From: Planctomycetia bacterium | Lineage (GTDB): Bacteria > Planctomycetota > Planctomycetia > Gemmatales > Gemmataceae | Length of the DNA: 56,187 bases | Assembly: GCA_005772955.1 (NCBI GenBank) | Contig: SXID01000163.1 | Location: 1-56,187, forward strand | Direction of reading: 5' to 3' | Shown: piece after piece, positions 4,371 through 51,960 of the stretch | How positions within the stretch are numbered: position 1 is the first letter of the stretch | Layout: each line of letters opens with the position of its first letter | The notes under the pieces: model-generated | Database searches by the model: none | The model's input: the letters and a program-made list of their open reading frames with translations, nothing else | What the model was told of the DNA's origin: nothing | Made by a program: the position numbers and the translations under genes

Positions 4371-4604
4371 GTGCGGCCCTTCAATCGCGTAGCCAATCGC
4401 GTAGCCGCGACGCGCAGCGGAGCGCGGAACGTTTGCGCGAGGAGCCGCGCTCCGCTGCTACACGACTGGAATGTTTGCGCGAAGGGTCGTGCTCTACGCC
4501 TTGGACTTTTTCCTTGCCTTGGACCTTTGCGCGAGGAGCCGCGCTCCGCTGCGCGAGGAGCCGCGCTCCGCTGCGCGTCGCGGCTACGCGAATGAGAGGT
4601 ACCC
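4371..4604. repeat. REP-type repeat cluster upstream of the RAYT gene
   Basis: The REP core GTAGCCGCGAC occurs at 4401-4411 and, inverted, at 4577-4587. Between them a 24-base unit beginning GCGCGAGGAGCC occurs three times (4435, 4529, 4551), the last two head to tail with a 22-base period. The unit is itself partly palindromic (GAGCCGCGCTC). This is the arrangement expected of a REP/BIME cluster next to the transposase that uses it. No gene is seen in the interval. Confidence 0.8.
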
Positions 4605-5210
4605 GTGAAGCCCGTTCTTGGCTACCACGTCATTTTCAGCGCCTATGGGTTCTGGCTGCCGAACGACCCGCGTGGGTCGTGGTCCGATTTCGTCGGTGCA
4701 TGGGATCTGTTCCACGCCGGCGGCAAGGCCACCACAACCACAGAGCGCCGCGCCCTTCACCGCGACCCACACGACCGCGCGAAGCGACTCGCAACCAAGC
4801 AGGCGCTCGCGCGACCAGCGGTGAAATTCACCGGGTTGCAAGCGTGGGCCGCGTGCCAAGGGTTCGGTGAATACATCGCGAAGTCCGGGCTGCCGGTGTG
4901 GGCGTGTGCCATCATGCCGGACCACGTTCACATGGTAACCGGCCCCTTTCGCCTCGATGTCGAACAGATCGTCGTTCAGTTGAAGGCCGCGGGCACGCGC
5001 CGGTTGATTGAGGAACGGCTTCACCCGTTTACGCACCTCGCGGAAGACGGCGACCGGCCACCGAAGTGCTGGGGACGCGGCGAGTGGAGCGTTTTCCTCG
5101 ACTCCCGCGAAGACATCACACGCTGCATCGGGTACGTTGAGAACAACCCCGCCAAGGAGGGGAAGCCACGACAGTCGTGGTCGTTTGTAACACCCTACCA
5201 ACCTGCGTAG
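4605..5210 (+). CDS. REP-associated tyrosine transposase (RAYT, IS200/IS605-like Y1 HUH family)
   Basis: 201 residues. The HUH motif is in IMPDHVHMV (His107, His109), and the likely nucleophile is Tyr177 in CIGYVENNPAKEGKPRQ, the C-terminal signature of RAYT proteins. RAYTs are single-copy, domesticated relatives of IS200/IS605 TnpA. They bind and nick REP palindromes and are thought to spread them. The gene sits between inverted REP copies: 4401-4411 and 4577-4587 upstream, and a perfect 27-bp-arm palindrome (5206-5266) downstream, where the gene's own TAG stop forms part of the REP core. The family is longer here than minimal TnpA. The context, between nuoC and nuoD, suggests that it entered the operon. 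Confidence 0.88.
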   Translation: MKPVLGYHVIFSAYGFWLPNDPRGSWSDFVGAWDLFHAGGKATTTTERRALHRDPHDRAKRLATKQALARPAVKFTGLQAWAACQGFGEYIAKSGLPVWACAIMPDHVHMVTGPFRLDVEQIVVQLKAAGTRRLIEERLHPFTHLAEDGDRPPKCWGRGEWSVFLDSREDITRCIGYVENNPAKEGKPRQSWSFVTPYQPA

Positions 5211-5266
5211 CCGCGACCCGAAGGGGATCGCGAAACGCACGCGATCCCCTTCGGGTCGCGGCTACG
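5206..5266. repeat. Perfect REP palindrome at the 3' end of the RAYT gene
   Basis: Arms of 27 bases at 5206-5232 and 5240-5266 (beginning CGTAGCCGCGACCCGAAGGG), with a 7-base loop. The core matches the REP copies at 4401, 4577, 15514, 48924 and 51313. It overlaps the transposase stop codon and ends 15 bases before the nuoD start, so it lies in the nuoD leader. Confidence 0.85.
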
Positions 5267-5281
5267 CCAAATGGCCTCTCC

Positions 5282-13202: not shown

Positions 13203-14939
13203 TCACGCGACGCGTGCCTTCCGCTGCCGGTAGTATTTCAATCCCGGCACGAAGAACGACATCGCCGACACCGCACCGAACAGCAAGATGCTCACGTGCG
13301 GCACTAGCGGCATGACGATGGCCGCGGCGAAGTTCAGCGCGGCCCACCCGTAGAACCGGCCGGACAGGATGCCAGCCTTGAACACCATCACCATTCCGGC
13401 CGCGACCGCCACCGCCGGCGACAGCGTCAGCGCGTCCAACGGAATCAACCACTCGATCCAGAACATCGCGATACTGGCGCACACGCCAGCGGCCCAGGCG
13501 TGCGCGATCTGACGCTCGACGAACAGCACCGGACCGGCCGCCTTGCGGAGTTGCCAGAGCACCGCGCCCCACGTCACCAGACCCACCGACCACACGCCCA
13601 TGTACCACACGTGATCGTTCAGTTCCGACCACTTCATAATCTGCGTGAGTAGGCACAAGAGGAAGATCATCACGCTGTGGAAGATCCACAGTTTGCCCCA
13701 GTTTTCGAGGATGTCGGCGTGGTGCGTTTCGCGGAACAGACGAGCCACGAAGAACCGCAGCCCACTCGGGGCAGCAGCAACGGGGCGCCCGGCGGTGTAG
13801 GCTTCGAGGTCGTCGGCCAGCGCGGCGGCGGTCGGGTAGCGCATGTCCGCGGGTTTCTGAAGACACTTCAGGCAGATGAGTTCGAGTTCGCGGTCCACGG
13901 TCGCGTTCAGGTGGCGTGGCGGCACCGGTTCCTGTTCGAGTACGAGCAACAGCGTATCGAGCGGGTGCGCGGCCTGGAACGGCGGTCGTCCCGTGAGCAG
14001 TTCGTAGAGCACCGCGCCGAGCGCGTATACGTCCGCGGCGGGCGTGAGAAGTTTCCGCCCCGCGGCCTGTTCGGGCGCCATGTAACTTGGCGTGCCGACC
14101 ACCGCTCCGGTCCGTGTCAGGCTCTCCGAGTTGTCGATTTTCTTGGCGAGGCCGAAGTCGGACACCTTCGGTTCGAAGGCGGAGGGGGGAAGGCGGAAGG
14201 CGGAGCCAGAATCGGCTGTTGGATCCGCCTTCCCCCCTCCGCCTTCCGCCTTCGCCAGGAGGATGTTGCTCGGCTTCAGGTCGCGGTGCAGGATGCCTTC
14301 GGAATGGGCGTGTTCGACCGCTCGCGCGATCACCGCGACGAGGTGCGCCGCTTCGCGCGGCGGAAGCGGTCCGTCGGCGCGGACCTTCTCCGCGAGCGTT
14401 TGCCCGCCGACGAACTCCATGCACAGGTACGCTTGCCCGCCCGCGGTGCCGACCTCGTACACGGTCACGATGTTCGGGTGCTTGAGCTTCGCGGCGGACT
14501 CGGCCTCGGTGCGAAACCTGGCGAGGTCGGCGTCCGTGGCGAGGTGCGCTTCGCGCACCATCTTCAGCGCGACGATGCGGTTCAGACTCTTTTGACGTGC
14601 GCGGTACACGACGCCCATGCCGCCGCGTCCGACCTCTTCGAGCAACTCGAAGTCGCCGAAGTCTCGCGGGAGCGTCGTGGGAGTGTGCACGGTGTGATCG
14701 CCCGCGAACGACGGCGTGAGTGGTCCGGTGAGCGCGGATGCAACGGCGAGGGGCGGGGACGGTTCCGGCAGACTCGCCATGTACGCGAACTGCGCGACGG
14801 CCCACAGTTCGCGCAACTCCGCCGCGAGATCGGGGTGGTTGCGTGCAGCGGCGTCGATGTCAGGCGGTCGCCCGTCCCGCTGCTCGCCCGCGAGCCGGTC
14901 GATGAGCGCTGCCAACTGTTCGTCGCGTTCGGGGGTCAT
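13203..14939 (-). CDS. Ser/Thr protein kinase with C-terminal membrane domain
   Basis: 578 residues. The kinase domain covers about 95-385: GRGGMG (104-109), Lys126 in ALKMV, HRDLKPSN (Asp220, Asn225), DFG (261-263) and APE (288-290). All catalytic residues are present. About six hydrophobic segments follow (420-570), so the kinase faces the cytoplasm at the membrane. The stretch between Asn225 and DFG is about 23 residues longer than in ordinary kinases. The extra DNA is a perfect 23-bp-arm palindrome (14175-14246) kept in frame. The gene is the last of a minus-strand unit with an ECF sigma factor. Such kinases probably control that sigma factor or its partners by phosphorylation (inference). 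The N-terminal 90 residues are typical of planctomycete kinases of this unit. Confidence 0.93.
   Translation of the reverse strand: MTPERDEQLAALIDRLAGEQRDGRPPDIDAAARNHPDLAAELRELWAVAQFAYMASLPEPSPPLAVASALTGPLTPSFAGDHTVHTPTTLPRDFGDFELLEEVGRGGMGVVYRARQKSLNRIVALKMVREAHLATDADLARFRTEAESAAKLKHPNIVTVYEVGTAGGQAYLCMEFVGGQTLAEKVRADGPLPPREAAHLVAVIARAVEHAHSEGILHRDLKPSNILLAKAEGGGGKADPTADSGSAFRLPPSAFEPKVSDFGLAKKIDNSESLTRTGAVVGTPSYMAPEQAAGRKLLTPAADVYALGAVLYELLTGRPPFQAAHPLDTLLLVLEQEPVPPRHLNATVDRELELICLKCLQKPADMRYPTAAALADDLEAYTAGRPVAAAPSGLRFFVARLFRETHHADILENWGKLWIFHSVMIFLLCLLTQIMKWSELNDHVWYMGVWSVGLVTWGAVLWQLRKAAGPVLFVERQIAHAWAAGVCASIAMFWIEWLIPLDALTLSPAVAVAAGMVMVFKAGILSGRFYGWAALNFAAAIVMPLVPHVSILLFGAVSAMSFFVPGLKYYRQRKARVA
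14175..14246. repeat. In-frame palindrome inside the kinase catalytic domain
   Basis: The arms are 14175-14197 (starting GAAGGCGGAGGGGGGAAGG) and 14224-14246, perfectly complementary over 23 bases, with a 26-base loop. On the minus strand it encodes kinase residues of about 231-255 (reading AEGGGGKADP and later FRLPPSAFE). The frame stays open through both arms. Confidence 0.85.
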
Positions 14940-25909: not shown

Positions 25910-27844
25910 ATGCCCGTTCCCCTGTGCTGTCCGTGGCGGTCGGTCTGGTTGGCGCGGGCGGTCGCCCTGATCGCGCTCGTCATCGGCGTGCCGCTGTTCC
26001 TGCGGATGCCGCCGTGGTGCGACCTCACGCTCTATCAGATGGCGGCGCGAAACATCCTCGACGGCGGCGTTCACTACCGCGACATCTTCGACACCAACCT
26101 GCCCGGCTTCGTGTGGGCGCTCACGGTCATTCAATGGGTGTTCGGTGAGAGCGTGGTCGCGGTGCGTGCCGCGGACCTACTCATCGTCACCGGGATCATG
26201 TTCCTCCTTGATCGGCTGGCGAAGTGGGGCGGGGCATCGCCCGCGGCGCGGTGGTGGGCGGTGGCGGGCGCGACCGCGTTCTACCCGTTCACGGTGGAGA
26301 TGTCGCACGCGCAGCGCGACACCTGGATGGCGCTGCCGGGACTCGCCGCAGTCGCGCTCCGCGTGCGCCGCGGGATGGGGAGAGAAGAACCTCTCCCCCC
26401 AACCCCCTCCCCTAAGAAGGGAGGGGGAGCAGAAGAGCCGTCTTCTGCTGAAAGCCCCTCCTTCTCAGAGGGGAGGCGGGGGGAGGGGTTGTCTTCGTTT
26501 CGCCTCTCGCTCTGCGAAGGCGCACTGTGGGGCGCCGCGGTGTGGGTGAAGCCGCACATCGTGGTGATGGCCGCGACGGTGTGGTTGCTCACGGCGCGGC
26601 GGCTCGTGGGCGAACACCCACGCCCGTGGCGCGCCGCCGGGGCCGACCTGCTCGGCAACATCCTCGGCGGTCTCCTCGTCGGTGCGGCGGGCGTGGTCTG
26701 GCTGTTCGCTTCCGGCACCTGGGAGCCGTTCGTCGATGTGTTCACGAACTGGAACCCCGGCTATCTCGGGCTGATGTGGTCCGAACTCGAACAGCGGACG
26801 GACCAGCAACTTCACTGGTTCCCACCGTGGAGCCTGGGCCTACTCCTGACCGTGCCGCTCGCGCTCGTGTCGGCGCTGGACATGGCCCCGTGGTCGGGCC
26901 GCGAGGCCGCGACCGCGCGCCCGGACCGGGCCGGGTTCGTCGGCCACTGGCTGCCGCGATTCCTGTGGGACAAGCAAGCCAGCGCGGACGCGCGGTTCGC
27001 TCGCGGTGTACTCGGCGGGTTCTACCTCGCGTGGACCGCGCAGGCGTTCTTCCTTCAGCGCGGGTTCGAGTACGCACACGCGCCCGAAACGCTCCTCATG
27101 CTTGGCGTGTGGGCCTCGCACCGGTGGGCGTGGGGCGTGGTCGTGCTGCTCTGGCTCGCTGCGACCACGAGTACGTGGTCCCTCGCCGAAACCGACCCCG
27201 GCGTGCGAAACGAACTTCACAACATGCCCAAGACGGCGCGCGAACACTACGTCCCGCGACACCCGATCTTCGATTCCGACCGGTTGCGGCAGTGGCCGAA
27301 GTGCTGGCGCCCGGACTTGACCGACGCCGAGCGGTTCGCTCTGTGGGACAAGCTCCGGCTGCACCCGCCGCACGAGGCCGTCATCAGTTGGGAAGAACTC
27401 GCGGAGGTCGCGGAGTTCCTCCGCGCGCAAGGGGTGAAGGATTACGAGGTGATCGCGTGGTTCGACTCACCGCACGCGATCTACCTCACGATGCACCTCA
27501 AACCGGGCGTGCGGTTCATGCACGTGAACACGGCCTGTTCCATCGGGAGGGACAGCAACGGCGAGGACGGCGGCACGAAGGTGATGCGCGAACTGGCCAC
27601 GAAGACGCCGAACGCGAGGTTTGTCATCAACGATCTGGAGTGGGTGGTGCTGTCGGCCTCGACAGACGAGCAGCGCACGCTTTGGACCGGGCCGCCGCGT
27701 GACCCGCCGCACCACCTGATGCCGCGTGACACGCCATACCCCAACGACTTCCCGTTCAACCAACCGACCGTGTTCCGTACCCGCAACGGCAACGGTCGGT
27801 ACCTCGTTCACAAGGTCGTCACGCGCGAGAACAACCCCAAGTAG
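25910..27844 (+). CDS. Multi-pass membrane glycosyltransferase of the GT39/PMT-like type
   Basis: 644 residues. The N-terminal signal-anchor helix is followed by DLTLYQMAARNILDGGVHYR and DIFDTNLPGFVWALTVIQW, a pattern of lipid-linked-sugar-dependent transferases (acidic residues in the first periplasmic loop). I count about eight to ten transmembrane helices and a C-terminal soluble part of about 200 residues from residue 440 (LRQWPKCWRPDLTDAERFAL). An in-frame palindrome (26385-26499) encodes residues of about 158-197, a Pro/Gly/Ser-rich stretch (EEPLPPTPSPKKGGGAEE), which interrupts a hydrophobic loop. The start is the ATG at 25910. A longer reading from 25322 overlaps the LRR gene and is rejected. 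Confidence 0.75.
   Translation: MPVPLCCPWRSVWLARAVALIALVIGVPLFLRMPPWCDLTLYQMAARNILDGGVHYRDIFDTNLPGFVWALTVIQWVFGESVVAVRAADLLIVTGIMFLLDRLAKWGGASPAARWWAVAGATAFYPFTVEMSHAQRDTWMALPGLAAVALRVRRGMGREEPLPPTPSPKKGGGAEEPSSAESPSFSEGRRGEGLSSFRLSLCEGALWGAAVWVKPHIVVMAATVWLLTARRLVGEHPRPWRAAGADLLGNILGGLLVGAAGVVWLFASGTWEPFVDVFTNWNPGYLGLMWSELEQRTDQQLHWFPPWSLGLLLTVPLALVSALDMAPWSGREAATARPDRAGFVGHWLPRFLWDKQASADARFARGVLGGFYLAWTAQAFFLQRGFEYAHAPETLLMLGVWASHRWAWGVVVLLWLAATTSTWSLAETDPGVRNELHNMPKTAREHYVPRHPIFDSDRLRQWPKCWRPDLTDAERFALWDKLRLHPPHEAVISWEELAEVAEFLRAQGVKDYEVIAWFDSPHAIYLTMHLKPGVRFMHVNTACSIGRDSNGEDGGTKVMRELATKTPNARFVINDLEWVVLSASTDEQRTLWTGPPRDPPHHLMPRDTPYPNDFPFNQPTVFRTRNGNGRYLVHKVVTRENNPK
26385..26499. repeat. 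In-frame palindromic element in the GT39-like gene
   Basis: The left part reads AAGAACCTCTCCCCCCAACC and the right part GAGGGGAGGCGGGGGGAGGG followed by GTTGTCTT, imperfectly complementary over about 29 bases. Two inner hairpins are nested: CCCCCTCCC with GGGAGGGGG (about 26403-26426) and GCAGAAGA with TCTTCTGC (about 26430-26449). The reading frame stays open through the whole element (about 38 residues). The same sequence family is found at 28374-28515. Confidence 0.8.
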
Positions 27845-27908
27845 TTCCGAGTTGAAGACACGCAACCTCGGCTCTTTGCCTTCGGCTCGGAACTCGGAAC
27901 TCGGAACT
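27843..27908. repeat. Dispersed repeat AGTTCCGAGTT / AACTCGGAACT
   Basis: AGTTCCGAGTTG (27843-27854) with inverted partners AACTCGGAACTCGGAAC ending about 27908. The same repeat is at 46511-46618. It lies downstream of the glycosyltransferase stop codon (27842-27844) and could form the transcript end. Confidence 0.7.
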
Positions 27909-27984
27909 TTCTTGTTAGGGTTGACCGCGAGCGGCCACATCCGGCATCATCGCACTCCTGACGTTCCCCACAGGAGGCGGATTC

Positions 27985-29499
27985 GTGCGCGTGCTGTCGT
28001 TCTCGCGGTTCACCACCTGGCTTCGCACCACCCACGCCGCGAACCCGCGCCGCCCGCGTGCCGCGTTCCTCGCGGTGCTGGCCGTGGTCGTGGTGCTGAT
28101 GAGCGTGAAGTACGCGGCCAAGATCGCCAAGCCCGGCGACACCGGGCAGCAAAGCCGGTCCGCGTTCCTGCGCTGGCGCGCGATGGTGAACGGCGTGTTC
28201 GCGGGCGAGAACATCTACGTCGGGGTGAACGAGTACCCGAACCCACCGATCATGGCGGTGGTGCTGCGCCCGTTCACCGCACTGCCCCCCGTTGTGGGCG
28301 CGCTCGCGTGGTTCTACGCGAAGGTGCTGCTCGCGGTGCTGGCCGCGGTGTGGGTGTTCCGTTTGTGCCGCGGAGAACCTCTCCCCCCGTCCCCCTCCCC
28401 TAAAAAGGGAGGGGGAGCAGAACCAACAGAAGGTGACGCCCGCGTTTCACCGGCGCGCGATCCGCGCGAGGCGCCTCCTCCCTTTTTAGGGGAGGGGGTT
28501 GGGGGGAGAGGTTCTTCGCTCCGCCTCGACCTCGCCCGCGGAGCCGCGATCATCCTGTGCCTGCCGCCGTTGCTCGGCGACCTGTCGCACAACAACGTGA
28601 ACATCTTCATCCTGTTCCTCGTGGTCGGATGCCTCGAAGCGTTCCGACGACGGCTCGACACGCTCGCGGGGTTGACGCTCGCGCTCGCTGTCGCGTGCAA
28701 GGTGACGCCGCTGCTGTTCGTCGCGTACTTCGCGTACAAGCGGTGCTGGCGCGCTCTCGGTGCGACGCTCGTGGGCCTCGCGCTGTGGCTCGCGGTCGTG
28801 CCTGGCCTCGCGTTTGGCTGGGACCGCAACCGCGAACTCATGACCGGCTGGTACGCGCTCATGATCGAACGGCCGCTCTTGAAGGGCGAGATTACGACCG
28901 AACACCCGAATCAGGCCATCACGGGGTTCGTGTACCGGCTGTTCACTCACAGCCCGTCGTACCTCGTGTACCCGAACAACATCCCGACGCCGGCCGAGTA
29001 CCACAACCTCGCGGACATCGGCCGCCCGGCTGCGTGGGTCGTCGTGAAGGCGCTCACGGCCGTCTTCGCGCTCGCGGTGATGTTCCTGTGCCGATCCCCG
29101 GTGCGCAGGTCGACCGACGCGCGCCAGGGATGGCGCATCGCGGCCGAGTGTGGGCTGATCTGCCTCGGCATGTTGCTTTTCAGCGAGCGCACGTGGAAGC
29201 ATCACGCGACCATCCTGTTACTGCCTCTTGCGGCGCTCACATTCGCGGTCGCGGTGGTGGAACTCTCAAGCCGCGTGCGAGCCTTCACCATCGGCGTACT
29301 GGTCGCGTCGTTTGTGCTGATGGCAGGGCCGGGCCTGCTCGGGGGTCGCGGCGCGGACCTCGCGATGGTGTACGGCACGCACACGATCGCGTTCGCGTTG
29401 CAAACGGTCGCGGTAGGCGTACTTTTGGCGTGCCGGTCACGCGGTGCGGACGACATGTGCGGGTCACGCAGCGCGGCGCGCGAAACGATTCCCAATTGA
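27985..29499 (+). CDS. GT87-family (DUF2029) membrane glycosyltransferase
   Basis: 504 residues. DUF2029/GT87 proteins are integral-membrane transferases that add sugars from polyprenyl-phosphate donors. Family features visible here are NEYPNPPIMAVVLRPFTALP, NNVNIFILFLVVGCLEAFRR, ALAVACKVTPLLFVAYFAYK, and ITTEHPNQAITGFVYRL in a periplasmic loop. Roughly ten transmembrane helices are present. The start is GTG at 27985, with AGGAGG at 27972-27977. A 142-base palindromic element (28374-28515) is inserted in frame, giving residues of about 130-177 (LPPSPSPKKGGGAEPTEGD and, on the other arm, PPPFLGEGVGGRGSS). It separates two transmembrane segments. The gene is the second of a tandem pair, both carrying the same insertion type. 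Confidence 0.82.
   Translation: MRVLSFSRFTTWLRTTHAANPRRPRAAFLAVLAVVVVLMSVKYAAKIAKPGDTGQQSRSAFLRWRAMVNGVFAGENIYVGVNEYPNPPIMAVVLRPFTALPPVVGALAWFYAKVLLAVLAAVWVFRLCRGEPLPPSPSPKKGGGAEPTEGDARVSPARDPREAPPPFLGEGVGGRGSSLRLDLARGAAIILCLPPLLGDLSHNNVNIFILFLVVGCLEAFRRRLDTLAGLTLALAVACKVTPLLFVAYFAYKRCWRALGATLVGLALWLAVVPGLAFGWDRNRELMTGWYALMIERPLLKGEITTEHPNQAITGFVYRLFTHSPSYLVYPNNIPTPAEYHNLADIGRPAAWVVVKALTAVFALAVMFLCRSPVRRSTDARQGWRIAAECGLICLGMLLFSERTWKHHATILLLPLAALTFAVAVVELSSRVRAFTIGVLVASFVLMAGPGLLGGRGADLAMVYGTHTIAFALQTVAVGVLLACRSRGADDMCGSRSAARETIPN
28374..28515. repeat. In-frame palindromic element in the GT87 gene
   Basis: Arms of 38 bases: 28374-28411 (begins AGAACCTCTCCCCCCGTCCC) and 28478-28515, 36 of 38 positions complementary, 66-base spacer. 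The inner part includes CCCCTAAAAAGGGAG. The frame stays open on both arms. The outer arms match those of the element at 26385-26499. The intergenic palindrome at 33035-33082 shares the GAACC...CTCCCCCTCC part. Confidence 0.85.
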
Positions 29500-29569
29500 C
29501 GAAGCGAATCGGCTACGGGGTTTGGGTATACTGAGCGGAGATGGCGATGCGCCCACTCTGAGTGACCCC

Positions 29570-32500
29570 ATGCCGTCGCGCGTGAAACCCCCTACCCCCC
29601 CGGCCTCCCTCCCTTCAATACGTGAGGGGGGCATCTGGAGGGGCGCAGGTCTCTGGACCTTCGCCCTCGCGCTACTCCTGACGGGAACGGTCGCACTCTC
29701 CGCACAGCCGCCCGCGATCGATCCGCTCAAGAAGATCGTGGACCCACCCAAGACCGACAAGACCGACAACAAGCCGCTCGTCGTGAAGTTGCCCGACGGC
29801 ACGTTCCTCTGGCTCGGTCCTAACGACGGTGGCGAGCGGGTCACCCTCACGCCGCAAGAGTTTCAGAAACTCCTCGACCGCGTCGATGCGCTCAAGAAGG
29901 AACTGGCCGCACGCAAGCCGATCGCGCCAAGCGGGTGCGCCGTTCGCGGGCGCGTCGAGAAGCGCGGCGAGCAACTCGTCGCGGCGCTCAAACTCACGTA
30001 CACGTTCCGCACCGCGCAGCCGAACACCGCGGTCTCGCTCGGCGGACGTAAGGCGTTCCTGGTCGGGGCTGCGCTCGACGGCGCGAAACTGCCCGTACTC
30101 GACACCGCTGACGACGGCTTCGCGGTGCTCGTGGAAACCGCCGGCGATCACACGCTCGTTCTCGATGTCGAAGCACCCGTGACCGCGCACGGTGTGAAGG
30201 CCGAAATCGGCTTCGACCTTGGGCTGCCACGCGCACCCATCACCACGCTCACCCTCGACCCACCAAGTGGAGACGTGAAGCGCGTCACCCTCGCCACCAA
30301 GACGCCCGACCCGACGAAGCCGGCCGAATTGCGGCGCGTCGCGGTGGATGTGAAGCAACTCGCGCCGAAGGGTAACGAGGCCGGGCTTCCGCTCGGCCCG
30401 GTTGAATCGCTCGAAGTGACCTGGGATCCGCCCGCGGCGGTCGCGCAACCGGCGGACCAGATTCAAAGCGCCGAGATCGACGTCGCCGTGGTCCTCACCG
30501 ACGGGTTCGTGGAGTCCACCGCGAAGGTGAAGGTGCGCGGCCCGGCGCGCGAGTGGATGCTGGTCGCACCGGCTTCCGCCGACGTGAGCGTGGACCGCGT
30601 CGCGGCACCGGGTGACACCGGGGCGACGCAGCAACCCGTGGTGACCAAACCCACCGACCCTAACAAGCCGGTGTGGAAGATCGAACTGCCGACGGGTTCG
30701 ACCGGGGCCGACTGGGTCGTGACGGCCGTGGTGCGTCAGGCGCGGTCCAAGTCCGGCGGGGGAAAGTCGGTCGCGTTACCGGTCGGTCCGTTCGCGGTGC
30801 TGGACGTGTTCCGGCAGACCGGCATCGTGAACGTGAAAGCCGGGCCGCACAACCGGTTCGTCTTCAAGCACGGCCCAGACTTGCGCCGCGCGGAGGTTCC
30901 CGGCACGCCCGAAGACGACGTGAGCGCGGCGCTGTTCCGCCTCACGACCGGGCCGACTGGCACCACACCGGTGAACACGCCGCTACTGACCGTGGAGGCC
31001 TGGCCAGTGGAAGGCGCGGTCCGCGTGCGCCCGGTGTACAAGTTGGAACGCACTGACACTGGCTGGAAGGTACGAGCGGAAATCGCCGTCAAACCGATCC
31101 GCACCGAGGTGGACACGATCACCATCGACGTACCGGCTGAATGGCGTGGGCTGGAGTCGGAATTCGACCCCGAGGCGGTGCAGGGCGTGAGTCAAGGGAA
31201 GGTGGAGGGCGCGTGGGGTCCGGTCACGGTGCGTCTGGCCAGCGCGACGAAGCAACCGTTCAGTGTGGTGCTGCTCGGCACGGTGCCCGTGCCGCCGGGC
31301 ACGCGAGAAGTAGCGATCCCGTTCCCGCGATACCCGAAGTCTGTGGAACGTGACGCGACGATCACAGCGAGCGTACCGGACGGCTTCGAGGTGCGAGGCA
31401 CCGCTCGGGGGTGGGACGGTGAACAACCGGCCGCGTGGGGCGCGCCACTCGTCGCCGTTCCCGGCGCGGACGGGAAGGTTCCCAAGGTCGTCGTCGCGGT
31501 GACCGGCCGGGCTGAACTCGGGTTCGCACGCGCCGTGCTGAACTGGCAACCGCACCGACCGGACGTGACGGCTGAGGTCAAGACCGAGGTGACCGTCGGC
31601 GAACGTCAGATCACGGTGAAACAGGAGTTCCGCCTCCGCTCGCCCGACGGGTTCATCAAGCCAGTGCGATTCAGCGGCCCGCGCGACGCGCTCGGACTGA
31701 AGGCCGTGCCGGCGCTCGAACCCGCGGGGCTGGGCGTGTGGACCTACTCGCCGACTACCAGCGATAAGAACGCCACGATCCACGTGAACTTCGCGCTGCC
31801 GCTTCCAGACCACGCCGACGGACCGCTGTCGCTCTCGGTCGGGCTGCTCTGGCCGACGGACGCGGTTCGCACGGAAGCGAACGTGCGCGTCTGGGCCAAC
31901 AGTGTGACTGGGCGCACGGTGAACACCGCTGTGGCCGGCTGGCGCGAACTGCCGCCGGAAGTCTCGCCCGAACGCGACACGTTACCCGCTCTCACGCTCG
32001 CCGCGTCCGCCGAACACCCGCTTGTGCTGGAAGTGCGTCAGTCGAACTCGGAATCGGCGGTAGCGGTGTGGGTGGAACGAATGCTGGTCGAAGCCGGGAC
32101 GACCGAGGACGGCGCGGTGAGTTACCGCGCGCGGTTCCGGCTGTCGCGCTGGCTCGCGCCCGCGATTGAGGTGTGGCTGCCCGGCGCGATCGGCCCGAAC
32201 CCGACGGCGCGCATCGACGGTGTGGGCGCCTTGCTGCAACCCATTGGCGAAGCGGACGGCGGGCGCCGGTTCCGCGTGAGCCTACCCGACGTGCTGGCCG
32301 GGCGCAGCGCTGTACTCGAACTGCAGTACACGCTCCCCGGTTCGCGGCAGGTGCTTGGCGAAACCGTCTACCAACCGCCGCGGTTGACTTCCGCGGCCTA
32401 CTCGGGTCCGGTGCGGTGGCTCATCACCGAAGCGTCCGGTTCCGCGCCGCTGTTGTTCAGCGATCGCGCGCGGCCGGAACTGCGGTGGCGCTGGCGCGGC

Positions 32501-33031
32501 CCGATCCTCGCGCCTTCGGCCGCCCCTCGCGCCGACCTCGAACGCTGGTTCAACTCCGGCGAACCGGACGCGGGCGGATGGGCCTCCGCGCAGGAGGGCG
32601 AACCGCTCGCGGTCCGGCAGACCGCGCCGGACGCGGTCCGCGTGTTCCGCGCACCGTGGCTTGCGTTCGTCATCGTGTGTTCGCTGGTGGTGTTCCTCGT
32701 CGTGATCCTGCTGACGTGGCTAACCCCGATCGCAGCTGGATTGGTGGTCACTGTGTTGTGCGGTGTGTTCGCGGTCGTGGCTGTGTTGTACCCGCAACCG
32801 GCGGCGCAGGCGGTCGCGGCCGGGCAACCGGGGTTGGTGATTGCGCTGCTCGCTGTGACCGTGCAGGCGCTGGTGCGGTGGGAAATCCGCCGGCGCGTGC
32901 GGTATCTGCCGGGCTTCACGCGGACGCTGCCGGAAGCGATCGCTGGCACCGCGCCCACGGGTTCTGTGCCGTCGGCGCGGAGCCGACCGGCGAGTACAGG
33001 CGTGCCCGCGCCCACAGAAAGTGGTTCGTAG
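29570..33031 (+). CDS. Very large secreted/membrane protein, unknown function (module type 1)
   Basis: 1153 residues. Signal segment FALALLLTGTVALSAQPPA (cleavage near Ala46), then a segment VKLPDGTFLWLGPNDGG and a helix with LTPQEFQKLLDRVDALKKEL. A long beta-rich extracytoplasmic part of about 950 residues follows, with no catalytic motif. The C-terminus has three or four transmembrane helices (FVIVCSLVVFLVVILLTWL and VLCGVFAVVAVLYP) and a basic tail. The ATG at 29570 starts MPSRVKPPTPPASLPS, a repeat-like Pro-rich lead before the signal. The gene is followed within 62 bases by a second giant gene with a related layout. Such pairs seem to be peculiar to planctomycetes. Its role may be in envelope structure, but this is inferred. 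Confidence 0.75.
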   Translation: MPSRVKPPTPPASLPSIREGGIWRGAGLWTFALALLLTGTVALSAQPPAIDPLKKIVDPPKTDKTDNKPLVVKLPDGTFLWLGPNDGGERVTLTPQEFQKLLDRVDALKKELAARKPIAPSGCAVRGRVEKRGEQLVAALKLTYTFRTAQPNTAVSLGGRKAFLVGAALDGAKLPVLDTADDGFAVLVETAGDHTLVLDVEAPVTAHGVKAEIGFDLGLPRAPITTLTLDPPSGDVKRVTLATKTPDPTKPAELRRVAVDVKQLAPKGNEAGLPLGPVESLEVTWDPPAAVAQPADQIQSAEIDVAVVLTDGFVESTAKVKVRGPAREWMLVAPASADVSVDRVAAPGDTGATQQPVVTKPTDPNKPVWKIELPTGSTGADWVVTAVVRQARSKSGGGKSVALPVGPFAVLDVFRQTGIVNVKAGPHNRFVFKHGPDLRRAEVPGTPEDDVSAALFRLTTGPTGTTPVNTPLLTVEAWPVEGAVRVRPVYKLERTDTGWKVRAEIAVKPIRTEVDTITIDVPAEWRGLESEFDPEAVQGVSQGKVEGAWGPVTVRLASATKQPFSVVLLGTVPVPPGTREVAIPFPRYPKSVERDATITASVPDGFEVRGTARGWDGEQPAAWGAPLVAVPGADGKVPKVVVAVTGRAELGFARAVLNWQPHRPDVTAEVKTEVTVGERQITVKQEFRLRSPDGFIKPVRFSGPRDALGLKAVPALEPAGLGVWTYSPTTSDKNATIHVNFALPLPDHADGPLSLSVGLLWPTDAVRTEANVRVWANSVTGRTVNTAVAGWRELPPEVSPERDTLPALTLAASAEHPLVLEVRQSNSESAVAVWVERMLVEAGTTEDGAVSYRARFRLSRWLAPAIEVWLPGAIGPNPTARIDGVGALLQPIGEADGGRRFRVSLPDVLAGRSAVLELQYTLPGSRQVLGETVYQPPRLTSAAYSGPVRWLITEASGSAPLLFSDRARPELRWRWRGPILAPSAAPRADLERWFNSGEPDAGGWASAQEGEPLAVRQTAPDAVRVFRAPWLAFVIVCSLVVFLVVILLTWLTPIAAGLVVTVLCGVFAVVAVLYPQPAAQAVAAGQPGLVIALLAVTVQALVRWEIRRRVRYLPGFTRTLPEAIAGTAPTGSVPSARSRPASTGVPAPTESGS

Positions 33032-33034
33032 AGC

Positions 33035-33082
33035 GAAGAACCACTCCCCCTCCTTTCTTGTAGGGAGGGGGAGTGGTTCTTC
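33035..33082. repeat. 19-bp-stem hairpin between the two giant genes
   Basis: GAAGAACCACTCCCCCTCC (33035-33053) pairs perfectly with 33064-33082. The loop is 10 bases. It starts 3 bases after the first gene's stop codon and ends 10 bases before the second gene's ATG. It is the intergenic relative of the in-frame elements at 26385 and 28374. Confidence 0.85.
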
Positions 33083-33092
33083 TGGAGTTCCC

Positions 33093-36000
33093 ATGCCCCG
33101 TTCGGGCTGGCTACTTCTGGTGTGCGCGTGCGCGGCCGGGACCGCGCTCGGGGCGGTGCCGCGCCCACCCACGAACGCCCTCGTCCGCGGCACGATCGAC
33201 TTCGTCCCCGCCGAAGACCCATTCCCCATCCACCGCGTTCGCGGCGCTGACGCCCGCTTACCGGACCTGCTCAAAGAACTGGAACCCGGCCCGGTCACGC
33301 GAATGCCGCGCCCGGAGTTCGAGTCTCGCGTGCGTGCCGCCGGGCGCGGCGCGTACCAAACAAAGCACGGCGCGCGGGTTGTGGACGCGACCTATACGGC
33401 CGAACTCGACGGTGGCGACCTGAACGGCACGGCCGAACTCGGCATCCTGAACGCGAGCGGCGTGACCGGGTTTCTGCCCCTCGATCCCCTCAAGTTGGCG
33501 TTGGCTGGCGCGAAGTGGGTCGGCGGCAACGAGGCGGTGCTCGCCGTACTCCAGACCGCAACTCCGAACGTGAGCGTGCCGGCCGTGTGGGTGGACCGCG
33601 ACGGGCGCCGCGTGTTGCAGTTCAAGTGGTCGCTGACCGGGACGACGGAACCCGGTGAGCGGCGGTTTGAACTACGCGTTCCGCCATGTGCCGCCTCGGC
33701 GATCGAACTGAGTCTGCCCGCCGATCAGGTGCCGACCGCGTCAGCGGACGTGTTGCTCACTGGCCCGTTCGAGGTGACCGGCAAGCCGACGCGTCGGGCG
33801 TGGCGGTTGCGATTCGGCGGGCGCGCGAAACTCGAGTTTGCCGTGCGCGCCGGCGGCGCGCCGTCCGTGGGCGCGACGGCGGCACTTGTCGCGAAATACG
33901 AACTCAGTCCCGGTCAACTCACGGCCGCGTTCGAGTACGAACTCCACCCGGCACGCGGGTCGGTGGCCGAGTGGACGTTCACTGCCGACGCGGGTTTGCG
34001 CATCACGGAAGTGATCGCGAACAACCGCGCTGGGTGGGTCGTCGATCCGCCGCTTGTGCCCAACGGTCCCCGGCGCGTGCGTGTCAGTCTCCGGCAGCCC
34101 GGCCCCGGTGGGAAGATTCTCATCAACGCGGTCGCGCCGCTGCCCGACCCCGCGCGCCCCGCGGATGCGCCGCTGTTGGCCGTGCGCCCGCTCGGCGCCG
34201 TCATCGAGAGCGAAGCGGTGGAACTGCGGGTCGCGCCTGGCCTGCGGATCGACTCCTGGGCACCGGGCGATTACCGCCTCATAGACGCGGTCAGTCCTCC
34301 CCTCGGCGCTCTTGATCAGGCGCGGGTGCTGTCGCTCGTTGGCACGCTGCTTCCCGGCGGCACGGACGAAGCGTTCCGGCGAATGCCGTCGGTCCGCACT
34401 GTCGCGCCCGACGTTGAGTTCACTACCGTCGAACGGCTGGAGTGGACCCCCGGTGCAACGCGGTCTTCGCTGGTCGCGAGAGTCCGAGTGCGAGTGGTGC
34501 GCGGTCCGTTGTTCCAACTCACAGTGCGCCCGTTGCCGGGTTTCGTGCTCGATCGCGGCGCGGCCGGGACTGACGAACTGGTCGCGTACATCGGCCCGCC
34601 ATCGCCTGCGGGTCAGGTGATCGAACTCGCGCGTCCACTGCTCGTGTCGCAGTCCGCAGAGTTGCGACTGGAGTTCCGGGGGTCTGGTGTGAAGCCCGGC
34701 GAACCGGTGCTGTTTCCGGCGTTCGCGGTACTCGGCGCGACCGAGCGCGACGGATGGTTGAGCGTCGCGGCCGACCCCGCGTGGGCGGTGAGCACCCGAC
34801 CCGGCGCGGGCGCGTCGGCCACGGGGTTGTGGGGTTGGTTGACGCTCGACGCCCCCCGCGACGCGCGGTCGGTGTTCTCATTTCACGCGAAGGAACCGGA
34901 CGGGTTCGCGACCCTCACGCCGGTGATCCCGAAGGTGAGTGTTCAGGCGGTCGTTACCCTCGACGCGCCCGACGAGCGGTTGACCGCGACCACACGATTC
35001 ACCGTCACCGCGACCGGCGGCGTGCTTTCCTCGCTCGTGGTATTCGTCCCCGGTCCGCGAGTGAGCGATCGCTCGTGGAAGTCGCTCGACCCGACAAACG
35101 TGGTGGCCGACGTGATCTCCGTTCCGTCCGAACTGTTGGAGATGGTGCCATTGTTCGCGCCGCTCGACATGCACGCGAGCGCCGTCGGAACGCGGGCGCG
35201 CGACGGCGCCCCGGACGGCACGTTCTGGGTTCTGTGGTTCGCACGCCCGCTGACCGGCGTGGCAGTTCTGGAAACGGTCGGACCCGCTCCGCTCGGCGCG
35301 GACTCGGTGTCGTTCCCGGTTCCGCAGATTTTCGGCGTGACGCAGACAACGCGCGCGGAGGTGGTGCCTGCTCTCAAAGATCGGTTCGCGGCCGAAGTGG
35401 TCGGGAAGGTGGTGCGGGTTGGTCCGCTCCCGCGGGTCACGCTCGGCGCGTACCCGGTGTCCGATGCGTATCTACTCACGACCGTGCGTGCGCCAGGTGA
35501 AGCGGTCGCCGCGTTCGGTGGGACGGTTCGCGACTCCCCGGGCGGTGTGCTGCCGGTTGGCCTGCCGCCGGGCGCGGAGGTGCGTGGAGTGTGCGTCGCG
35601 GGTCGGTGGCTGAACCCGGCGCAGTGCAACGCTGCGAATGGTAAACTACGCGTTCCGATCCCGGTGGGACCGGCGGTGCGTTTCGAGGTGCGCTACCATC
35701 TGCTGGCCGCGACCGGGTGGCCGACGCGGCGTGTCACCAGCCCGGTGCCGACGGTGCCCGGCGACCCACCGGTGCGCCGGTGGTGGAGCTTCGGAGCTGG
35801 CACGCTTCCCGGGTGGCCGGCGCGACCGTGGGAAACGACGGCAGACGAACCACCGCTCCTGGGCGGGCCGCTCACGAGCGGTGACCCGGCGCTCGTCACT
35901 CGTTCGGACGACACATGGGTCCGAGTCGGCGCGGTGCGCGGTGCCGATTCGCTGGCGGTTGGACTGGTCGTGGGGGTCGTCGCGCTCGGCTGTGTGGCGA

Positions 36001-43866: not shown

Positions 43867-43928
43867 CGTAAACGATTGCGGCCCGCGCACCACTTCGCGA
43901 AGTGGTGCGCGGGCCGCAATCGTTTACG
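43867..43928. repeat. Perfect 62-base palindrome
   Basis: CGTAAACGATTGCGGCCCGC begins the left half, and its exact reverse complement ends at 43928 (CGTTTACG). Every position pairs around the centre between 43897 and 43898. It starts 5 bases after a stop codon. As RNA it would form a 30-bp hairpin, or as DNA a cruciform. There is no U-run. Confidence 0.9.
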
Positions 43929-46624: not shown

Positions 46625-47569
46625 ATGGCTGAACCAATCACGATTGCCACCTGGCCGTTTGGTAAAACCGCGGTCGAGGCCGCGATGAAACTGCTGGCGA
46701 AAGGCGAACCGGCCCTCGACGCCGCGCTTGCCGGCGCACAAGCAGTCGAAGACGATACGAGCATTCGCAACTCGGTGGGGTTCGGCAGTCTGCCGGACCG
46801 CCTTGGCCGGCTCACGCTCGATGCTTGCGTGATGGACGGGCGCACGCTCTCGTGCGGCGCGGTCGCGTGTGTCGAACACATCAAGCACCCTGCCGCGCTC
46901 GCCCGCCGTGTCATGGAGAAGACGCCGCATGTGCTGCTCGTGGGCGAAGGTGCCAAGTGGTTCGCGCTTCAACAGGGCTTCCCGCTCGAAGTGCCGTACA
47001 CCGCTGAGAGCATCAAGGAATGGCTCGACTCGCACCCCGATAGGAAGAAGCCCGAAGGGAAAGACAAAGCCCCTTCGCCCGTGAGGACCGACGGCGCGTC
47101 CAGCATCAACGTGGACGAGTTCAACCACGATACGGTAACGGTGCTGTCGCTCGACAAGAAGGGGCACCTGGGCGGGGTCTGCACGACGAGCGGACTGGGG
47201 TACAAGTTGCCCGGCCGCGTCGGGGATTCGCCCATCATCGGCGCGGGATTGTACGTCGATGACCTCGCTGGCGCCGCAGGCGCAACGGGCGTGGGCGAAG
47301 AAATCATCCGCATCGGCGGGAGCCTGTTCATCACCGAACAGATGCGTGCCGGCAAGTCGGCGCAAGAAGCATGTGAACTGGCCTGCAAACGCGCGAACGC
47401 CGCGTCCGGTCGCCGCGGTGTTCACCCGACGCGGGTCGCGTTCCTGGCGCTGGACCCGAAGGGCAACATCGGTGCGGCCTGCACCGAGAAAGCCGGATTC
47501 AAGTACGCCGTGGGCCGCGGGGACAAGGTCGAACTGCTCACCGCAAAAGAGATCGGGCCTCAGGCTTGA
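46625..47569 (+). CDS. N-terminal nucleophile hydrolase of the asparaginase 2 / glycosylasparaginase family
   Basis: 314 residues. The family shares IATWPFGKTAVEAAMKLLAK at the start, NSVGFGSLPD, DGRTLSCGAVACVEHIKHP and the cleavage region NHDTVTVLSLDKKGHLGGVC, where Thr170 becomes the N-terminal nucleophile after autoproteolysis between Asp169 and Thr170. The last part has GRVGDSPIIGAGLYVDD, typical of the beta subunit. Enzymes of this type hydrolyse isoaspartyl peptides, asparagine or N-glycan-linked asparagine. Several planctomycete members have a signal peptide, but here none is seen, so it is probably cytoplasmic. The start is the ATG at 46625, preceded by dispersed-repeat DNA. Confidence 0.92.
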   Translation: MAEPITIATWPFGKTAVEAAMKLLAKGEPALDAALAGAQAVEDDTSIRNSVGFGSLPDRLGRLTLDACVMDGRTLSCGAVACVEHIKHPAALARRVMEKTPHVLLVGEGAKWFALQQGFPLEVPYTAESIKEWLDSHPDRKKPEGKDKAPSPVRTDGASSINVDEFNHDTVTVLSLDKKGHLGGVCTTSGLGYKLPGRVGDSPIIGAGLYVDDLAGAAGATGVGEEIIRIGGSLFITEQMRAGKSAQEACELACKRANAASGRRGVHPTRVAFLALDPKGNIGAACTEKAGFKYAVGRGDKVELLTAKEIGPQA

Positions 47570-47580
47570 GTGGACAGCAG

Positions 47581-47669
47581 ACAGAAGTCAGAGGTGTTTA
47601 GCGTTGGACCCAGCGGGGCCAAGACGCCTGGCCCCGCTGGGTCCAACGCTAAACACCTCTGACTTCTGT
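47581..47669. repeat. Perfect 41-bp-arm hairpin repeat
   Basis: ACAGAAGTCAGAGGTGTTTA begins the left arm (47581-47621). The right arm 47629-47669 is its exact reverse complement. The loop is AGACGCC. It contains the motif GGGTCCAACGCTAAA shared, with one or two changes, with 9629 and 16739. It begins 12 bases after the Ntn hydrolase stop codon. It is followed by CTCTGTCCTCTGTC repeats. Confidence 0.9.
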
Positions 47670-47739
47670 CCTCTGTCCTCTGTCTTCCATCTCTTGGTAC
47701 AATTCACCTGTCCCACGTTTTCAGAGCGGAGGGGGCGGA

Positions 47740-51881: not shown

Positions 51882-51960
51882 GCGAGCTGGGAGCGTAAGC
51901 GACGGGAGGCTTTGCGCACTCGATGCCCAAAGCCTCCCGTCGCTTACGCTCCCAGCTCGC
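51882..51960. repeat. Perfect 33-bp-arm hairpin
   Basis: Left arm 51882-51914 (GCGAGCTGGGAGCGTAAGCG...) and right arm 51928-51960, perfect complement, 13-base loop. It begins one base after the stop of the DUF2201 remnant and ends nine bases before the stop of the minus-strand propeller gene. It may end both transcripts. Confidence 0.85.

Follow-up and report, generated by a model that had tools for sequence, protein, structure and literature searches.

Two neighbouring genes in a 56,187-nucleotide stretch of Gemmataceae DNA (the window) each carry a palindromic element in frame, and both elements are copies of one palindromic family, here called family A. The window is contig C143 of a draft genome of a Planctomycetia bacterium (coded G000; 5,925,703 bases in 278 contigs). 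Copies of family A are dispersed through this genome, keep the reading frame of their host genes, lie in conserved enzymes and differ in length between orthologues by whole codons, and the same sites are reused by other palindromes in other species. As part of the joint explanation developed below, family A is very probably a dispersed palindromic repeat of Gemmataceae, small and non-autonomous, with arms of about 43 nt and a variable core.

In-frame placement of family A

A genome search with CCCTCCCCTAARAAGGGAGGG at ≤1 mismatch returned 126 matches, against 0 for the backwards control. The arm consensus is GAACCTCTCCCCCCAACCCCCTCCCCTAAGAAGGGAGGGGGAG (56 copies with two full ungapped arms), and the gap to the complementary arm is 9-63 nt in 20 two-arm copies of G000. 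Family A has terminal inverted repeats, a hallmark of miniature inverted-repeat transposable elements (MITEs), and many of its copies are degenerate or shortened. The census was based on 79 stretches around listed matches (about 100 of 149 and of 126), and its counts apply among the matches listed. Controls were provided by a sister family, B (CCTACCCCCCAACCCCCTCCCTGAAGGGAAGGGGAG), and by other palindromes. Copies were called genic where up to 210 nt on each side had the codon usage of the genome (log-odds >0.05), no stops and one common frame.

Genic placement was found for 33 of the 72 family A places, and all 33 copies are stop-free. For family B, 7 of 22 copies have coding flanks in one frame, 2 of these being stop-free (A vs B, Fisher p = 0.002). 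Among 89 other palindromes listed in 568,424 bases, one (L058, in UvrA) belongs to family A and was missed by the stricter census rule. Of the remaining 88, 9 are genic and stop-free, 4 are genic but contain stops, 71 do not lie in a single frame and 4 are at edges, so that stop-free genic placement stands at 33/72 for family A vs 9/88 (Fisher p = 5e-7). The other family A places comprise 10 with coding flanks in different frames of the same strand, 25 with one coding side, 2 between opposite strands and 2 without a coding side. The 10 different-frame copies look intergenic because the upstream open reading frame (ORF) ends at or in the element (≤8 nt from the padded start in 7, inside in 2, at the far end in 1), with a start codon located between 17 nt before and 73 nt after the padded end. 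Frameshifted genes as their source appear to be excluded by these ORF ends and starts, judged without homology. At intergenic copies such as L044, L046, L050, L072, L074 and L083, an upstream stop lies within a few bases and a start follows soon after; the element therefore fills the gap between two genes.

The original prediction had singled out membrane glycosyltransferases as hosts. These are not special: most hosts are other proteins, many of them conserved enzymes. Placed by Pfam and by alignment to solved structures, the hosts include chorismate synthase, FPP synthase, UvrA, MutL, FolC, QueG, the 2-oxoacid dehydrogenase E2, apolipoprotein N-acyltransferase, an ABC protein and a P-type ATPase, with the elements located at domain borders or within the enzymes. 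In chorismate synthase, the alignment to 5z9a ends at chain residue 261 and restarts at 268, with 51 query residues between. Similar breaks are found in FPP synthase (7my7, 194 to 201, 52 query residues), in UvrA (9gxk, 628 to 633, 48 query residues) and in a phosphopantothenoylcysteine decarboxylase homologue (1e20, 63 to 71, 47 residues), whose N-terminal piece aligns weakly. Of 30 genic copies, 15 fall between domains or next to one and 9 inside a Pfam domain; a TPR protein holds 2, and 4 have no domain nearby. G000 has one match each for chorismate synthase (E≤1e-20) and FPP synthase (E≤1e-30); therefore, the element-filled gene is probably the working copy. A single ORF at 2871-4040 of L032 contains a family A element, another that is a lone arm, and a DUF559 domain beside a MobA-like domain, perhaps a further insertion.

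The encoded segments are about 20-55 residues long and rich in Pro, Gly, Ser and Lys; we infer that they are disordered. Reading phases were scored in an initial set of 30 genic copies. For the left arm, 19 copies give PLPPTPSPKKGGG and 9 give NLSPQPPPLRREGE or NPSPTPPLRREGL; for the right arm, PPPFLGEGVGGRG or a variant of it appears in 22 copies and SPSLLRGGVGEG or one of its variants in 6. Two copies per arm could not be scored. The phase containing a stop is used by no arm among the scorable copies. Each arm is thus read in two phases. The idea that the element itself is selected to be stop-free is rejected, since its stop density, a measure that does not depend on length (an earlier open-frame count was not matched for length), matches that of shuffled family A. 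Counted over six frames, genic A has 2.47 stops per 100 codons, against 2.85 in A copies elsewhere and 2.57 in shuffled A; family B has 1.94 and other palindromes 2.31. Open genic copies are therefore attributed to selection on the host gene: the gene as a filter is enough to explain them, and family A bears no mark of selection against stops.

Translation was assessed at 17 genic sites (18 pairs) where both DNA flanks, 79-97% identical, could be located in loci of relatives, mainly one metagenome-assembled genome labelled Singulisphaera sp. GP187 TrH-25oct19-98, probably G024. The flank-to-flank length differs by -72 to +96 nt, always by a multiple of three in the 18 genic pairs (17 non-zero, 1 zero), whereas this holds for 3 of 11 intergenic pairs (Fisher p = 5e-5). 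Since the length changes by whole codons in genic pairs alone, this argues strongly that the genes read through the elements and that in-gene copies would be translated.

Records carrying the element are labelled Gemmataceae, Planctomycetia or Singulisphaera among the matches listed. The loci of relatives hold at least 76 family A copies after removal of duplicates and locus-end copies; 45 of the listed ones have coding flanks in one frame, and 40 of these are stop-free. A second genus (G090-G092) together with G010 contributes 21 distinct places, 12 of them genic and 11 of the 12 stop-free; 3 of the 9 non-genic places (L312, L323, L324) are a palindrome other than the matched one. The hairpin pattern occurs patchily, in 20 of 95 genomes of the family, with 0 to 273 matches per genome within the genus.

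Contents of the same sites in related genomes

Alignment of the host proteins with homologues, as the original prediction proposed, revealed orthologues without the element. At the site of copy 2 in the window, the family A segment is absent from 29 of 29 other aligned loci. The same loop in L131 holds a different, palindromic insert of 147 nt (score 75 vs 18 ± 4 in shuffles, equalled by 0/300), and the GT87 inserts found in G011, G021 and G023 lack palindromic structure. At the E2 site, family A is found in two genomes and L135 holds a GACCGC-type palindrome (score 92 vs 18 ± 4). At the site of copy 1, G000 and G024 have family A, G016 has a distantly A-like palindrome (z 13), the inserts of G011 and G017 have no significant palindrome, and the remaining orthologues compared have no family A element. 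In chorismate synthase, G000 and G024 again carry family A, a fragment from G025 has an A-like right arm, G014 carries a GACCGC-type palindrome (z 10), and the remaining scored genomes have no significant palindrome.

The loop of FPP synthase was compared in 18 genomes. Family A occupies it in G000 and G024. Degenerate A-like palindromes are present in G017 (z 3.4) and G018, the latter falling short of significance when scored more strictly (z 1.0). G013 and G015 carry a second family (GAGCGGGGGnCGTnAGnCCCC; z about 17), of which G016 has a single short hairpin (z 3.8). G020 carries a third (GTGGGCAGTGGACAGTGGGCAG; z 6.6) and G026 a weak fourth (GCGGAACGCGGAACG; z 3.5). The palindrome in G014 is marginal, and there is no clear one in G009, G010, G011, G012, G019, G021, G022 and G023. 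One loop thus holds four mutually dissimilar palindrome families in different species, one of them weakly palindromic. Pairwise comparison gives no match among the A-like set, the GAGCGGGG set and the G020 insert, and the G026 insert matches, weakly, solely the kinase palindrome of the window described below. The GAGCGGGG and GACCGC types are dispersed in G000 too. In a tree of two enzymes (700 columns), G000 and G024 are paired with support 0.998, and carriers of GAGCGGGG fall in two places (G013 with G016; G015 with G018). At fixed sites, the cores of family A differ between species. In G012, the loops of FPP synthase and of the host gene of copy 1 (L249, L269) are short, and by eye just the outer A-like ends seem to be left (GAACC-GGTTTCTG; ACCTCTC-TGTCTTC); these are possible deletion scars.

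Stop-free in-frame palindromes other than A and B occur in G000 about once per 60 kb (9 in 568 kb), and the site reuse is therefore far above background, a comparison made without a null model for tolerance; loops that accept insertions of any kind would produce such reuse as well.

The window elements and neighbouring palindromes

The hairpin core common to both window copies, CCCCCTCCCCTNANRAGGGAGGGGG, has 5 matches in 3 places of the window at ≤3 mismatches and 0 in 100 shuffles. The arms of copy 2, 49 nt each, are 90% complementary across a spacer of 52 nt. The palindrome of copy 1 is less perfect because its 3′ arm is a shorter, divergent version; its self-complementarity score is 53 vs 23 ± 6 in shuffles and was equalled by 1 of 300. 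The host frame stays open through both copies, as had been noticed at the outset. The first reading of both hosts as membrane glycosyltransferases fits the host of copy 2, whereas Pfam gives no match to host gene 1 at E≤1e-3, so that neither "glycosyltransferase" nor "paralogous-type" is proven for it.

Table 1. Positions of the two window elements, their host genes and a nearby palindrome
Feature	Position	Strand	Remarks
Host gene 1	25910..27844	+	644 aa; orthologues present in genus
Family A copy 1	26384..26496	+	in frame in host gene 1 (EEPLPPTPSPKKGGG...SPSFSEGRRGEGL)
Copy 1 arms	left 26384-26430; right about 26454-26496	+	right arm divergent
Host gene 2 (GT87 glycosyltransferase)	27985..29499	+	504 aa; PF09594, E 2e-24
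Family A copy 2	28370..28519	+	in frame in host gene 2 (EPLPPSPSPKKGGG...PPPFLGEGVGGRGSS)
Copy 2 arms	28370-28418 and 28471-28519	+	
Palindrome, intergenic	33035..33082	.	perfect 19-nt arms; relation to family A uncertain

Host gene 1 is found twice, inverted, with identical scores and the element in both, on contig C81 of G024 (L264, L282) and also in L131 and L158, which is either an inverted duplication or an assembly artefact. The intergenic palindrome in Table 1 had been proposed as a relative without a coding role. It does lie between genes and has outer GAAGAACC ends and C-runs in common with family A; the proposed kinship is less secure. Membership in an RNA family of Rfam is rejected for 26000-33300, where all 7 matches at E≤1 are below the gathering score.

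A third coding palindrome of the window, of another family, lies in frame at 14174-14254 within a gene on the minus strand (13203-14939), which we take to be protein kinase-like from its motifs: HRDLKPSNILL is followed by a palindromic segment of 28 residues (AKAEGGGGKADPTADSGSAFRLPPSAFE) and then by PKVSDFG. On the plus strand, 4605-5210 is a Y1_Tnp gene (PF01797), like those of RAYTs, the transposases associated with repetitive extragenic palindromic (REP) sequences, and palindromes with GTAG (GCGTAGCCGCGAC...) flank it at 4394-4594 and 5205-5267; the whole is perhaps a REP-transposase unit. Long, nearly perfect palindromes at 47569-47681, 43867-43928 and 51882-51960 (arms of 53, 31 and 37 nt) are outside any single open frame where classified.

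Origin of the elements and related systems

We think it very likely that these observations have a joint explanation: dispersed palindromes that persist in frame, change their cores by whole codons and sit in loops that are reused by other families. Copies would spread as hairpin-forming DNA into genes and intergenic gaps. In genes, they would persist where the host frame is kept and the stop phase avoided, mostly in loops or between domains, the host gene filtering inserts for frame. The arms could supply homology for exchange, through which cores would change by whole-codon steps, and other palindrome families colonise the same permissive loops in other species. The two arms covary, with 25 same-base double changes between them vs 7.4 expected and a maximum of 19 in 1000 shuffles; 6 of the 25 stem from one shifted copy. 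Within arms, 56 copies show 0 compensatory changes and 16 broken pairs. In the most-listed hairpin variant of G009, G010 and G012 (CCCTTCCC...GGAAGGG), one pair is altered on both sides.

Several observations weigh against this explanation. The 29 of 72 copies that lie between opposite strands or have at most one coding side were classed by their flanks and may include truncated genes. In relatives, 5 of the 45 listed coding-flanked copies contain stops, the host ORF ending at or inside the element, as does 1 of the 12 genic copies in G090-G092 and G010. The case for translation is indirect. Core ancestry was traced in 8 comparisons, from which copy 2 vs the neighbouring gene's element in L131 (wrong element) and L055 (paralogous host) were dropped, and exchange at the 6 usable sites has 3 for, 1 against and 2 unclear; recombination between copies, partly supported in this way, may be the source of core change. 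No transposase or clean empty site was identified for family A, its parent transposon not having been searched for, and no target duplication was identified in a by-eye comparison of two sites with loops too divergent. The native loop sequence looks replaced rather than interrupted. We infer that family A is mobile.

A bolder extension, which we regard as tentative, is that established palindromes act as docking sites. Loop hairpins would be overwritten repeatedly by related or unrelated palindromes, through hairpin-driven template switching or arm-arm recombination, with only whole-codon products surviving.

That the palindromes are REP-like and moved by RAYT (Y1) transposases, as is thought for GTAG REPs, is unlikely. 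Their double-hairpin layout resembles REP dimers, Y1 family genes occur in 16 of 19 genomes of the genus, and intragenic REPs are reported in excerpts of PMC3733652. However, the family A arm consensus of 56 copies contains neither GTAG nor CGTC, G010 has 42 pattern matches without a Y1 match, and G015 has 7 Y1 matches and 0 pattern matches. Gene counts over 19 genomes speak against a dependence on Y1/RAYT abundance (Spearman 0.03), a result that also counts against our own explanation. We give still less credence to functional peptide modules, such as flexible linkers, kept for the protein with the palindrome as a by-product. Segments are retained at the same sites in related species and many sites lie between domains, as such modules would be. 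However, a peptide would not require arms that covary and are complementary in DNA, as these are; each arm is used in two reading frames, the same family also lies between genes, cores vary between orthologues and several orthologues have no element. An assembly or contamination artefact is hardly credible: the genome is a draft of 278 contigs, but the same sites are filled in separately assembled records, the one-contig genome G010 has three in-frame copies, and exclusively multiple-of-three changes are seen in genes alone.

In-frame palindromes are known already. The closest parallel is the Rickettsia palindromic elements (Ogata et al. 2000 and 2002, as told in excerpts of PMC2229807 and PMC10969869), and the original comparison with them stands on function, as both are in frame in unrelated conserved genes and also between genes. 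They are similar in size and palindromic, but family A belongs to another phylum and is a free-standing family, set beside them by description rather than by sequence; on its side are whole-codon length turnover between species and other palindrome families at the same sites. According to excerpts of PMC3733652, GTAG/CGTC REPs and their dimers occur within genes, uvrA included, recB of two Xanthomonas species has different REPs at about one site, a precedent for reuse, and REP families exist in Planctomycetes. Like these small hairpin repeats and dimers, family A is found inside genes, but it carries no GTAG/CGTC tag and does not track Y1 transposase counts. MITEs such as ERIC/RU-1, in the part of PMC2229807 that treats them, are likewise small non-autonomous inverted repeats that allow in-frame gene fusions; for family A, no target duplication (two sites, by eye) or parent transposon (not searched for) has been identified. 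In the mitochondria of Nematomorpha, long inverted repeats also lie in translated genes (PMC6649704, in excerpt), but there both arms encode conserved protein sequence, whereas the palindrome of family A is an added segment. Family A is not claimed as a member of the Rickettsia elements or of the REPs; it works like the former. Searches of an open-access library turned up nothing on coding palindromes of planctomycetes; as far as searched, the new points are family A itself, the turnover by whole codons from one orthologue to another, and how widely unlike palindromes reuse the same sites.

Coding palindromes have so far come mainly from Rickettsia, with scattered intragenic REPs elsewhere. 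In the 5.9-Mb genome of G000, nearly half of the listed copies lie in frame inside genes, several of them for core enzymes. Because the same genes occur in relatives with the element, with another insert or with none, an old question becomes testable, namely by what route selfish palindromes get into genes and change there while the genes stay intact, and whether such palindromes are raw material for protein loops. For annotation, runs such as LPPTPSPKKGGG and PPPFLGEGVGGRG flag element-derived protein. If the docking idea is true, many of the hypervariable loops in Gemmataceae enzymes would be palindrome sites, living or fossil, and selfish DNA would have a route to keep rewriting protein loops. 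In this family, small mobile-like DNA seems to reshape working proteins.

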